Assembly: GCA_016186715.1 (NCBI GenBank)
Contig: JACPLA010000079.1
Span: 1 to 44,101 of the forward strand
Length of the DNA: 44,101 bases
Reading direction: 5' to 3'
Origin: Ignavibacteriales bacterium
Lineage (GTDB): Bacteria; Bacteroidota; Ignavibacteria; UBA10030
The notes beneath the pieces are model-generated. The model made no database searches, had not been told where the DNA came from, and was given only the letters and a program-made list of their open reading frames with translations. Shown here piece by piece: positions 3,650-7,228 of the stretch. The position numbers were made by a program, and so were the translations under genes. Position 1 is the first letter of the stretch. Every line of letters starts with the position of its first letter.

Positions 3650-5410
3650 TTATCTTAGTTCAATCCTCACACCCTCCAGGGGCCAGCGCGCACGGAGTTT
3701 GAGCGTATCCGGATGCACCACAAAGCGTTCCGAAGCTACAAAAGGAAAGGACTTTCCTGCATCATACATACCGTTGTTGTTGCTGTCCCGAAAAGCGTCG
3801 AGAACATAGCTGCCTTCAAGGAGTCTCCCGAAGACAAAGCTGCCCGGAGTTTCCAGTTTTATCTGCTGAGATGCGGCATCGCGCCTGCCGATGTTCGATG
3901 CACGTAGGAGAATCGCCCCCGCCGTATCACTCTGATTCCAATCGACAACTGTCCCCTCGATGCTGCTGAATCGGTCCGCATCAAGCGTCTCAAAGCTGAC
4001 CGTCAGCACGGTATCCTTTGGCCGATTTCCCGAATAATCCTCGAGAATCCCCTGCCTGATCAGAAGCCGGTACCATGACAACCCGGCTAACTCATGTTCC
4101 GGGCGAAACGAAATCCCTGCGCTCCCATTCCACCCTCCGACCGTTGCGACAGGACGATTCAGACTGTCCCTCAATTGAACAACGTCCCCCCAGTCCACAC
4201 TCCGTACCGGCTCACTCAAGGTCACTTGAACTTCAGACATTAACAGAATACTACGGGAACTGTCGGGGGGCAACCAGCGCAATTCTGGCGCTACTGTATC
4301 GGGTACAACAAGCGGAATGAAGTCAAGCGAATTTGCCAGCGGGCTGATTTCATGGCCGACGGAATCGCGAACCCCTTGCACGGTCAGCCGAAAGGGCGAA
4401 TTCTCAAACGGACGTTCTGTCAACACAAAGACAGAATTGAGTTTCGGCACTGCGGGGGCCACATCACTCACCTCGAAAGACCGGATTCCCGCCGTGTCCG
4501 AAATCAAAAACGCACCGGAGCGAATTGTCGCGATATCAAGATTCTTGGAAAATTCAGCCACAATCATCCGTTCGTGAATTGCATCAACCTTCACGAGACG
4601 CGGCGCCGTCGTATCTTCCCGGGCCAAACGAAACAGGAGCCCGGTCCGAAGCGTGTCGGAGTCCGAGAGGCGCATATCGGCCTGAGATATGCCGATCTCG
4701 TCCGTTTCCGGATCATACAGCAGGTTCTTGTATTCGTCACGGATTGCAAACAACCTGTACGCGCCAAACGAAAGATGTCTGAAAGAGAACTTCCCGCTCT
4801 TGCCAGTTTGAGTGATATAATCCGGCTTGGAGGATTGTGGGTCAAGGGTGTCTGGATTCAGACCGTCAAGCCTGTACGCAAACACCATCACTCCCGCAGC
4901 CGGATCATTCCTGAGGGCCGAGTACACCGTCCCATCGATGCCTCCCCGGTCGATCTCCCCCCCGGTCGCGAAAGCAAGGATAAACGCTTCCGCCATTCTG
5001 TTTTTGTTTCTCGTATCCACAACATCGGTTCCGACCGTAACGACATACGTTGTGTTCTCCCTCAACCTTTCGCTAAAGGCGATTTCCACTTCTGTTCCGC
5101 TCCAGTCGAATTCAAGAGGACCCACGAATGGAGAAATGAATACCGACTCTTCGAACGATCGTCGGTCGACGTATTCGTCGAACTCAAAGGCTATCCTGCT
5201 ATCGTGGAAAAAGGTGGTATTGGGAGCGGGATAAACCGAAATAATCACCGGCGGGTCGGTATCGAGAGGTCCGCCGGACGGTGGAACCTGGCCGGCGCAA
5301 GAGACAAGACAAAAGCACCAAATCCCAATAACGAAATTCCAAACAAATCCGAAATCCGAATGAAAGAAATTCAAAACGGCGCTGTTTTGATCATTTCCGA
5401 TTTCGGTCAT
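3650..5410 (-). CDS. SbsA-type Ig-like domain lipoprotein with repeat-derived signal peptide
   Basis: Predicted lipoprotein of 586 aa, probably outer-membrane or cell-surface anchored. After a hydrophobic stretch (FVWNFVIGIWCF, about residues 22-33) comes lipobox LVSC, with the lipidated Cys at about 38, then PSGGPLDTDPPVIISVYPAP. This is the usual beginning of Bacteroidota/Chlorobiota proteins with an N-terminal SbsA Ig-like (Big_5) domain, which continues with DSRIAFEFDEYVDRRSFEES and the typical TTYVVTVGTDVVD. The C-terminal part has a carboxypeptidase-regulatory-like segment (SSIEGTVVDWNQSDTAGAIL) and a calcium-loop-like DSNNNGMYDAG. Residues 1 to about 33 are encoded by repeat copy A (5314-5489), so the repeat supplies the start codon and most of the signal peptide. 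An in-frame upstream start at 5485 would add 25 residues and seems less likely. Substrate or partner unknown. Confidence 0.88.
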   Translation of the reverse strand: MTEIGNDQNSAVLNFFHSDFGFVWNFVIGIWCFCLVSCAGQVPPSGGPLDTDPPVIISVYPAPNTTFFHDSRIAFEFDEYVDRRSFEESVFISPFVGPLEFDWSGTEVEIAFSERLRENTTYVVTVGTDVVDTRNKNRMAEAFILAFATGGEIDRGGIDGTVYSALRNDPAAGVMVFAYRLDGLNPDTLDPQSSKPDYITQTGKSGKFSFRHLSFGAYRLFAIRDEYKNLLYDPETDEIGISQADMRLSDSDTLRTGLLFRLAREDTTAPRLVKVDAIHERMIVAEFSKNLDIATIRSGAFLISDTAGIRSFEVSDVAPAVPKLNSVFVLTERPFENSPFRLTVQGVRDSVGHEISPLANSLDFIPLVVPDTVAPELRWLPPDSSRSILLMSEVQVTLSEPVRSVDWGDVVQLRDSLNRPVATVGGWNGSAGISFRPEHELAGLSWYRLLIRQGILEDYSGNRPKDTVLTVSFETLDADRFSSIEGTVVDWNQSDTAGAILLRASNIGRRDAASQQIKLETPGSFVFGRLLEGSYVLDAFRDSNNNGMYDAGKSFPFVASERFVVHPDTLKLRARWPLEGVRIELR

Positions 5411-5489
5411 TTGAACCTTGTTTGAAAATTCCTGCCCGCCTGCAGAAGTCTTAAGTGCCAGGCGGGGGTGCTTGAATCTTGGCACTTAC
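5314..5489 (-). repeat. Interspersed repeat, copy A
   Basis: One of three related minus-oriented copies. Plus-strand landmarks in order are AGCACCAAATCCCAATAA, ATTCCAAACAAATCCGAAAT, CGAATGAAAGAAATTCAAAA, then TTTCGGTCATTTGAACC. A TGCCCGCCTGCAG...GCCAGGCGGGGG segment able to form a CCCGCCTG/CAGGCGGG hairpin follows, and the copy ends near CTTGGCACTTAC. Copy A runs directly into the Ig-like lipoprotein gene and encodes its N-terminus. The junction lies near 5314-5317. Confidence 0.85.
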
Positions 5490-5497
5490 CTGGTTGA

Positions 5498-5678
5498 AGC
5501 AGCAAATCTCAATAACCAAATTCCAAACAAATTCAAATTTCACAATGACAAAAATTCAAAACAAGCTCTTACGTTTCGGTCATTTTGACTTTTAGTCACT
5601 TGAACCTTGCTTGAAAATTCCTGCCCGCCTGCAGGAGTCTTAAGTGCCAGGCGGGGGTGCTTGAATTTTGGTGCTTAC
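5498..5678 (-). repeat. Interspersed repeat, copy B
   Basis: Second copy, same orientation as A and only 8 bp from it. It shares AATCTCAATAACCAAATTCC, AAACAAATTCAAATTTCACA and the full GC-rich hairpin block (arms 5624-5631 and 5648-5655), and ends in GGTGCTTAC. The centre has diverged: the AATCCGAAATCCGAATGAAA stretch is replaced. Copies A and B therefore look like separate insertions or an old tandem duplication. Confidence 0.85.
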
Positions 5679-5680
5679 CG

Positions 5681-5878
5681 TCATTTCCCATGCCCGACCT
5701 TCTTCTTGCTCAAGGCTTCGTTCGCTTCAATATAGTTTGCCCCAACGGAACCGGATGCTCGGATGAGTTGTCGACAATATTCCAGGTTCGCTAGATCCTT
5801 CGGAACTTTTCTGACGAAATCCCGGACTCTTTTGGCAAACGCCTCGGTGCGCTCTTCAAGATCATAGTGTTTCCTCAT
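5681..5878 (-). pseudogene. Four-helix-bundle protein (23S rRNA intervening-sequence/S23 family), C-terminally truncated
   Basis: The 65-residue product begins MRKHYDLEERTEAFAKRVRD and contains RQLIRASGSVGANYIEANEA, the hallmark of the small four-helix-bundle family TIGR02436 (also called 23S rRNA-intervening sequence proteins; related to diversity-generating-retroelement Avd proteins). Full members run to about 115-125 aa. Here the frame breaks right after EALSKK, where it meets repeat copy B, so helices 3-4 are missing. The ATG at 5878 has GGGGGGA upstream. The gene is sandwiched between repeat copies B and C, an arrangement suggesting that the gene and repeat travelled together. Probably non-functional. 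Confidence 0.75.
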
Positions 5879-5895
5879 GTTCCCCCCAAAGGTGA

Positions 5896-6035
5896 AGCAC
5901 CAAATCTCAATGATCAAAAATTCCAAACAAATCCGAAATCCGAATGAAAGGAATTCAAAGCGGCGCCGTTTTAGTCATTTCCGATGTTGATCATTTGAGC
6001 CTTGTTTGAGATTTGATGCTTGAATTTTGGTACTT
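5896..6035 (-). repeat. Interspersed repeat, copy C
   Basis: Third copy, same orientation, lying between mltG and the four-helix-bundle fragment. It shares AGCACCAAATCTCAATGATC, TTCCAAACAAATCCGAAATC, CGAATGAAAGGAATTCAAAG and the GGCGCCGTTTT block with copy A. It lacks the CCCGCCTG hairpin block and ends TTGAATTTTGGTACTTA. Its left end touches the ribosome-binding region of the four-helix-bundle fragment, so the repeat serves as that gene's 5' flank. Confidence 0.85.
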
Positions 6036-6040
6036 AATCT

Positions 6041-7228
6041 CTACCCTCCCTGCCCAGCCCGCTGCATCTCGCGCCGGACTCTCCGGTAAAGCCTGATGGC
6101 ACGCTGATGCTCGGCATAGTTCGTACTAAATGTGTGCCCTCCCTGTCCGTTAGCGACAAAAAACAAGTATCGATGGTCAACGGGATATAACGCCGCCAGG
6201 ATGGCTTTCCTCCCCGGATTGTTGATCGGCCCCGGCGGCAGCCCGTAATGGAGATACGTGTTATAGGGAGATTTGATCTTTAGATCGCTGAACAAAAGTC
6301 GACGGGGGCCGTCCTGCAAGACGTACTGAATAGTCGGATCGGCTTCCAGCCGCATCCGCCTCTTCAGGCGGTTGTGATAAACCCCCGCTATCATCGCACG
6401 CTCGTCATCAAGTTGCGCCTCGCCTTCGACGATCGAGGCAAACGTGACTACCTCGTGCATCGAAAAACCCCACTCTTCCTGGCGAGCCCTGAGTGAGTCG
6501 TGGTAGAAGTTTTTGAACGCCGCGACCAAACTTTCTACAATCTGTTCTTCGTTGGTTTGCCAGTGGAAAAAATATGTGTCGGGGAGAAGATATCCCTCCA
6601 GCGTCTCCCCCGGTAATCCAAAGGCCTCGGCCGTTTCCCTATTGCTGCATAATTCCGCAATTTTCGCCGAATCGACGCCGAGTTCCGCACTCAGCCGTCT
6701 GGCAATACTACGAACCCGCAGTCCCTCCGGGATCGCGACGGGAATGAGCTTTCTCGAGGCCCCATCGCGTAAGTCACGCAGAATGCCAAAATTGGATACC
6801 CCGCTTTCAAAAACGTAACGTCCGACCATCATTTCCTTCGTCCAACCGAGAATCCTCCCCGCAATGCGGAGCCCCAGCCGGCTGCCGACAATTCCTTCCG
6901 CCGCCAGTGATTCCACCACTGTGTTGAACGATGCGCCACGCGAAACCGTGATCGTCCGCGTTGACGGCGAGGAAAACCAATTCGGCCACCAAAACACCCA
7001 AATGAAGAACACGACAAACAGTAAGAAGAGGGCTGAGGGCGGCACCATCCACCGCCGGAACGTCCCGCTTTCCAAAAGTTTCTTCAGATCAAGCTTCATT
7101 TCTTTGCAGACCGCTGCGATTTCCCTCGCATAGTGTGCCCGCTCATTGAGGAGTTTCACGAGCTCCACATCAATCGCGTCGATCTTTTGCCTCCACGATT
7201 CCAGCGAGTTTTTTGGCTCTTCCTTCAT
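6041..7228 (-). CDS. mltG: Endolytic transglycosylase MltG with N-terminal chorismate-mutase-like helix
   Basis: MltG is an inner-membrane lytic transglycosylase that cuts nascent glycan strands and sets their length. Residues about 62-81 form one membrane helix. The LysM-like and YceG catalytic regions follow, with the catalytic glutamate at E268 in FASIVEGEAQLDDERAMIAG, then YHNRLKRRMRLEADPTIQYV, LPPGPINNPGRKAILAALYP and HTFSTNYAEHQRA. Residues about 8-44 (LESWRQKIDAIDVELVKLLN, then ERAHYAREIAAVCKEM) match helix 1 of an AroQ-type chorismate mutase, including Arg13 and Arg30 in the positions of catalytic Arg11/Arg28 of E. coli. Helices 2-3 are absent, so mutase activity is unlikely. The start at 7228 overlaps the trpA stop (ATGA). 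M44 could start a plain MltG but has no clear ribosome site. Confidence 0.93.
   Translation of the reverse strand: MKEEPKNSLESWRQKIDAIDVELVKLLNERAHYAREIAAVCKEMKLDLKKLLESGTFRRWMVPPSALFLLFVVFFIWVFWWPNWFSSPSTRTITVSRGASFNTVVESLAAEGIVGSRLGLRIAGRILGWTKEMMVGRYVFESGVSNFGILRDLRDGASRKLIPVAIPEGLRVRSIARRLSAELGVDSAKIAELCSNRETAEAFGLPGETLEGYLLPDTYFFHWQTNEEQIVESLVAAFKNFYHDSLRARQEEWGFSMHEVVTFASIVEGEAQLDDERAMIAGVYHNRLKRRMRLEADPTIQYVLQDGPRRLLFSDLKIKSPYNTYLHYGLPPGPINNPGRKAILAALYPVDHRYLFFVANGQGGHTFSTNYAEHQRAIRLYRRVRREMQRAGQGG

Follow-up and report, generated by a model that had tools for sequence, protein, structure and literature searches.

In the review by Delihas, the open frames of miniature elements (MITEs) are described as fused to genes, with the signal peptide of Yersinia YPO1552 coming partly from a YPAL/RU-2 element (PMC2229807). 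Rickettsia palindromic elements (RPE) occupy in-frame positions within many genes, and translation has been shown for one such product, gmk (PMC2229807). In Coxiella, an S23-bearing intervening sequence (IVS) with terminal inverted repeats resides in the 23S rRNA (PMC4990558). The REPs are given as 20–40 bp (PMC3733652). The locus described here lies in a window that is the whole of a 44.1-kb contig (G000:C57) from the 2.39-Mb, 145-contig genome of an uncultured member of the Ignavibacteria. Here a conserved surface-lipoprotein gene now takes its start codon, and with it the greater part of its predicted export signal, from repeat DNA. The minus-strand order is yceG, the repeat array, the Big_5 lipoprotein, up3, up2, up1 and the 49-kDa NADH dehydrogenase subunit (nuo-type genes), and the order of yceG, lipoprotein and nuo-type genes recurs in many relatives. 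Read from yceG, the array comprises copy C, an S23 fragment, copy B and copy A, the three copies being 83–88% alike over their matching parts (Table 1).

Table 1. Features of the yceG–lipoprotein region, in window coordinates
Feature	Position	Strand	Evidence or remark
Mature Big_5 (Ig-like) lipoprotein, intact, single-copy in the genome	3650..5299	-	PF13205, 89.6 bits; orthologues in 57 relatives; no decay
Native lipobox LVSC, family-conserved as L.SCA[GN]Q..P.GGP	5297..5308	-	29 orthologue signal peptides
Putative chimeric signal peptide MTEIGNDQNSAVLNFFHSDFGFVWNFVIGIWCFCLVS	5300..5410	-	codons from 5313 up are repeat, the remainder native
Repeat copy A, imperfect palindrome with inner GC-rich hairpin insert CCTGCCCGCCTGCAG...CAGGCGGGG	5313..5490	.	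repeat finding, genome search, covariance model
Alternative TTG start in copy A, 25-aa signal peptide, without SD-like motif	5372..5374	-	sequence
ATG start codon in copy A	5408..5410	-	ATG in 11/12 repeat copies (GTG in B)
AAGG Shine–Dalgarno-like motif, repeat-derived, 5 nt upstream of ATG 5410	5416..5419	-	sequence
Alternative GTG start, 62 aa to Cys; basic n-region but too long	5483..5485	-	sequence
Repeat copy B, inner insert same as in A	5497..5679	.	repeat finding, genome search, covariance model
Truncated S23 / 23S-rRNA-intervening-sequence four-helix-bundle gene, N-terminal half only; ATG 5878, GGGGGG upstream	5681..5878	-	TIGR02436, PF05635
Repeat copy C, without inner insert; high end 4 bases off the yceG stop codon	5895..6036 (~6036)	.	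repeat finding, covariance model
yceG (endolytic transglycosylase family), conserved upstream neighbour	6041..7228	-	PF02618, 280 bits; synteny

The lipoprotein open reading frame runs on the minus strand from GTG 5485 down to 3650 and leaves the repeat as MTEIGNDQNSAVLNFFHSDFGFVWNFVIGIWCF followed directly by CLVSCAGQVPPSGGP; read from ATG 5410, MTEIGNDQNSAVLNFFHSDFGFVWNFVIGIWCF continues into CLVSC and then AGQVPPSGGP. The boundary of copy A is at 5313 (AAGCACC on the plus strand) and the Cys codon at 5297–5299, and the repeat contributes 98 of the 111 nt (32.7 codons) of the 37-codon segment that precedes the Cys, ending exactly at lipobox position −5, where it abuts the lipobox codons. The first-pass annotation had proposed that a repeat spans roughly the first 33 codons of the gene, that it supplies the start codon and a hydrophobic stretch, and that the native LVSC lipobox and family start are kept behind it. 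The first of these follows from the translation and the repeat boundary, the second from ATG 5410 in copy A and a core hydropathy (KD) of 2.63, and the third from the signal peptides of 29 orthologues. Its extent for the repeat, 5314–5420, was rightly located but too short, as the full copy A covers 5313–5490 and the whole array reaches to ~6036. Bar a small assembly risk, we regard the anatomy of the repeat–lipoprotein junction as near certain.

The lipoprotein was found in 58 of 61 genomes, its own included, with the nearest orthologue 54% identical; the named matches are mostly Ignavibacteria and Ignavibacteriales MAGs, and phmmer returned no relative of solved structure. None of the 29 orthologue signal peptides read is repeat-derived. 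Nearly all of the N-termini read have the same lipobox and family start behind unrelated short leaders (likely leaders mostly 16–38 aa), and residues 1–33 of the window protein are absent from the orthologues, which carry short signal peptides of their own, in keeping with a repeat origin of that segment.

The gene yceG is directly upstream of the lipoprotein both here and in most relatives examined. The distance from the yceG stop to the Cys codon is 32–226 bp in most relatives measured and ~740 bp in this genome, where copy C, the S23 fragment, B and A fill it apart from short stretches of other sequence, namely 4 bp at the yceG stop, the S23 leader, ~19 bp past the S23 break and 6 bp between A and B. 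Because nearly all of this gap is repeat or S23 fragment, the native start and hydrophobic region were lost or replaced, not displaced; the 19-bp piece past the S23 break (GTCGGGCATGGGAAATGAC) could be a native remnant. The insertion inside the signal sequence suggested at first pass stands as far as the lipobox is concerned, which is native, but the native 5′ end is missing and not merely interrupted. In four relatives (L036, L046, L050 and L066) the normally short gap is widened to 424–1034 bp, which would make the yceG–lipoprotein spacing a possible site of repeated insertion. The same conserved adjacency bears on whether the array was misassembled and the real gene retains its native 5′ end. 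The genome is a draft in 145 contigs, three similar repeats in tandem are a common cause of misassembly, and the junction at 5313 is known from one assembly of one genome of the genus, but the gross join must be right given the adjacency in most relatives examined, and the junction falls exactly at the repeat end, like a real element boundary, where a misjoin would fall inside the repeat; we consider such an artefact very unlikely. In a separate observation on YceG itself, its N-terminus in the window matches chorismate mutase type II (PF01817, residues 12–42, 33.8 bits), a stretch which in relatives is a separate match further upstream of yceG, so that YceG in the window may be a fusion with a truncated chorismate mutase, brought about by an in-frame deletion.

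Our preferred explanation, to which we assign a probability of roughly 0.6, is that an array of a MITE-like palindrome linked to S23/IVP (23S-rRNA-intervening-sequence-type) genes replaced the native 5′ end, and that the gene now starts in copy A with a chimeric lipoprotein signal peptide. The repeat would have settled between yceG and the lipoprotein in the order C, S23 fragment, B, A, and its arrival would have cost the gene its native RBS and start codon along with the greater part of the signal peptide. The gene would then most likely start at ATG 5410 in copy A, using the AAGG of the repeat, and in the exit frame the palindrome's T-rich arm would encode a hydrophobic run (FGFVWNFVIGIWCF) joined to the native CLVSC lipobox. 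From the sequence, we infer that ATG 5410 is used and that the product is exported by Sec and lipidated.

An SD-like motif comparable to AAGG (4-mer or longer) precedes 11 of the 24 window genes, against a background of 12%. At GTG 5485 the SD-like match is only a 3-mer. Translation from this GTG with a basic 62-residue leader, from which the frame is open (VPRFKHPRLALK...) and which would provide the missing basic residues, is the least probable of the alternatives, the leader far exceeding the likely leaders of the orthologues; since GTG 5485 is also inside copy A, the start would be repeat-derived in that case too. In RNA folding, an imperfect hairpin takes in or lies close to the SD/AUG region (z −3.4 for 211 nt and −1.9 for 123 nt), which could lower initiation.

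As a signal peptide, the predicted chimera has a lipobox that fits the pattern [LVI][ASTVI][GAS]C and is conserved in orthologues, and its best 10-residue hydropathy lies within the orthologue range of 1.4–3.75. A positive n-region is absent: before the core, ATG 5410 leaves no K/R and three acidic residues and TTG 5374 no K/R and one acidic residue, K/R being gained only from GTG 5485. All orthologues whose start can be read carry one or more K/R from one or more of their starts. With an n-region that is net acidic and devoid of positive charge, the chimera is probably exported less efficiently. In the exit frame, the last 32 codons are free of stops in three of 12 copies (A, L003 and L012), and copy A is the only one both open in this frame and charge-free over the last 14 codons; at the charge-removing position most copies encode E, R or D, and copy A encodes G. 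When copy A was shuffled, the frame from start to junction was open in 53% of cases, and open with a core of at least 2.0 in only 3.8%, and the real copies gave such a core in 9 of 72 combinations over all orientations and phases, indicating that a hydrophobic leader is uncommon by chance and moderately favoured by the T-rich arm. The term exapted, used at first pass, implies selection, of which the charge-free open frame unique to copy A would be suggestive only. On balance the chimeric peptide more likely than not acts as an export signal, though probably a weakened one.

The acidic, K/R-free n-region and an AUG in or near a hairpin are also what would be seen if the insertion broke the gene, with poor or no translation from the repeat start, no export, and an early pseudogene or functionless fusion as the outcome. 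This is the rival that we take most seriously, and we still regard it as unlikely: the ORF is open across the junction, where few copies lack a stop in the last 32 codons of this frame, the hydrophobic core is correctly placed with an SD-like motif and an ATG, and the body shows no rate increase. The ratio of lipoprotein to yceG tree distance is 1.49 here and 1.41–1.92 in the other genomes, and 70 of the 71 residues invariant in those genomes are kept. The absence of decay would support present function, short of proof. With 83% identity still shared between the S23 fragment and its intact relative, the rearrangement may be a recent one, and an undamaged body would then be expected either way and say little on present function.

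The repeat is a dispersed imperfect palindrome of ~130 bp (copies ~128–180 bp) whose ends, AAGCACCAAA...TTTGGTGCTT, form terminal inverted repeats; the inner GC-rich hairpin is present in A, B and some other copies. In its own genome, BLAST with the repeat gave 18 matches (best E 1e-91), and a covariance model built from 10 copies gave 33 matches at E ≤ 0.1 in ~18 places (best E 5e-25), far above chance, with most sites matched on both strands at the same place because the repeat is an imperfect palindrome. It is small, dispersed, multi-copy and without a transposase of its own, as MITEs are; in the repeat flanks compared by eye, no target-site duplication was obvious. Model matches occur in 15 of the 31 genomes searched (own included), with G005 highest among the relatives at 18 and its congener G018 at nine, and the repeat is also found in sister genera. 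No Rfam family matched 5200–6150 at E ≤ 1, and conservation of the hairpin at the RNA level was not evident, with compensatory change in only one of 26 pairs. In the 32 places inspected (18 in the own genome, 14 among relatives), the elements are intergenic, usually no more than ~60 bp from a plausible native start or stop; the window is the only place where the element supplies a conserved gene with its start. Nested in or beside several palindrome copies is a second GC-rich hairpin of the CCTGCCCGCCTGC...GCAGGCGGG type (5430–5470, 5620–5660, L003, L004, L006 and L007). A related repeat apparently encodes the C-terminal residues (KSQNPISKFETNWKS) of an isocitrate/isopropylmalate-dehydrogenase-like ORF at 871–923 of locus L160 (G005:C35), which would make that C-terminus repeat-derived.

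The window S23 fragment scores 30 bits with TIGR02436 (cut-off 24) and 25.6 bits with PF05635, the latter below its cut-off. Copy C, said at first pass to encode a similar peptide, indeed gives FLIIEIWCF when translated in the equivalent frame. It precedes this truncated S23/IVP ORF, however, which is not an exported protein, and we rejected copy C as a second repeat-derived export signal. At L160, in a sister genus, an intact S23 gene that follows a comM-like gene has a repeat copy on either side; the S23 product there is 83% identical to the window fragment over 59 residues. A repeat copy in L014 also precedes the start of an S23-like ORF. In both L160 and the window, where S23 is intact and truncated, respectively, the ORF is framed by self-complementary repeats, and the element is situated between protein-coding genes, not in 23S rRNA. 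A further mark of 23S rRNA intervening sequences is excision from the transcript by RNase III. These arrangements place the repeat, as judged from sequence, in an S23/IVP-linked element tied to one S23 subfamily, with S23 no more than a candidate mobiliser. A general tie between S23 and this repeat was rejected, as 34 other S23 loci (seven own, 27 in relatives) have no repeat match, and many of those read carry different flanking inverted repeats.

S23/IVP four-helix-bundle genes were found in 30 of the 31 genomes searched, own included, with eight PF05635 matches in the window's genome. Those read are between protein genes, many flanked by low-complexity inverted repeats that differ from copy to copy, and their appearance is that of IVS-type elements located outside rRNA. 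In L160, a second, partial copy of the 3′ region of the comM-like gene follows downstream of the S23 element, at 2150–2700, which suggests duplication at insertion. A broader reading is that S23/IVP genes and their flanking palindromes form a class of mobile elements inserting between Ignavibacteria protein genes outside rRNA, that the conserved SD-like motif, ATG and T-rich arm of the palindrome can swap the start and signal peptide of a resident gene, and that the charge-removing change in copy A reflects selection for export; we hold it to be doubtful as a whole. What may prove the more general lead is the association with S23/IVP, whose S23 genes sit between protein genes in nearly every relative examined.

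The locus would mean that the secretion signal of a conserved, chromosomally placed lipoprotein can be replaced by mobile-type DNA, signal peptides being tolerant sequences and T-rich palindrome arms tending toward hydrophobic runs. For annotation it is a warning, in that the N-terminus of this lipoprotein is repeat-derived and repeats can bring a start codon and an SD-like motif. Compared with known systems, YPO1552 likewise involves a small palindromic element; its open frame is hydrophobic and, through an in-frame fusion, forms part of a predicted signal peptide (PMC2229807). However, its product is a putative new exported protein made from the element and a chromosomal segment (PMC2229807), whereas the window element took the place of the leader in a lipoprotein that is conserved, syntenic and single-copy, and gives the start codon as well; the window repeat is of a different, S23-linked family from YPAL/RU-2. 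The RPEs are similar as palindromes of ~100–150 bp in frame within conserved protein genes (PMC2229807), but they occur in many genes, whereas the window repeat touches the start of a conserved gene at one of the 32 places. The Coxiella IVS shares the S23 four-helix-bundle ORF between self-complementary repeats (PMC4990558), and differs in its 23S rRNA location and in that S23 is truncated in the window. REPs with their RAYT (IS200-like Y1 transposase) resemble the repeat as dispersed intergenic palindromes, and the genome has seven Y1_Tnp matches, but REPs are only 20–40 bp (PMC3733652) and the repeat is absent near all six Y1_Tnp loci examined; RAYT was rejected as the mobiliser. The membrane segments derived from thymine-rich sequence also owe their hydrophobicity to T-rich codons, but these are yeast de novo genes (PMC7005711), whereas in the window a mobile repeat is joined to an old gene. 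In summary, the phenomenon is known in kind, and what differs here is the replacement of the leader in a conserved lipoprotein and the tie to an intergenic S23-type element.
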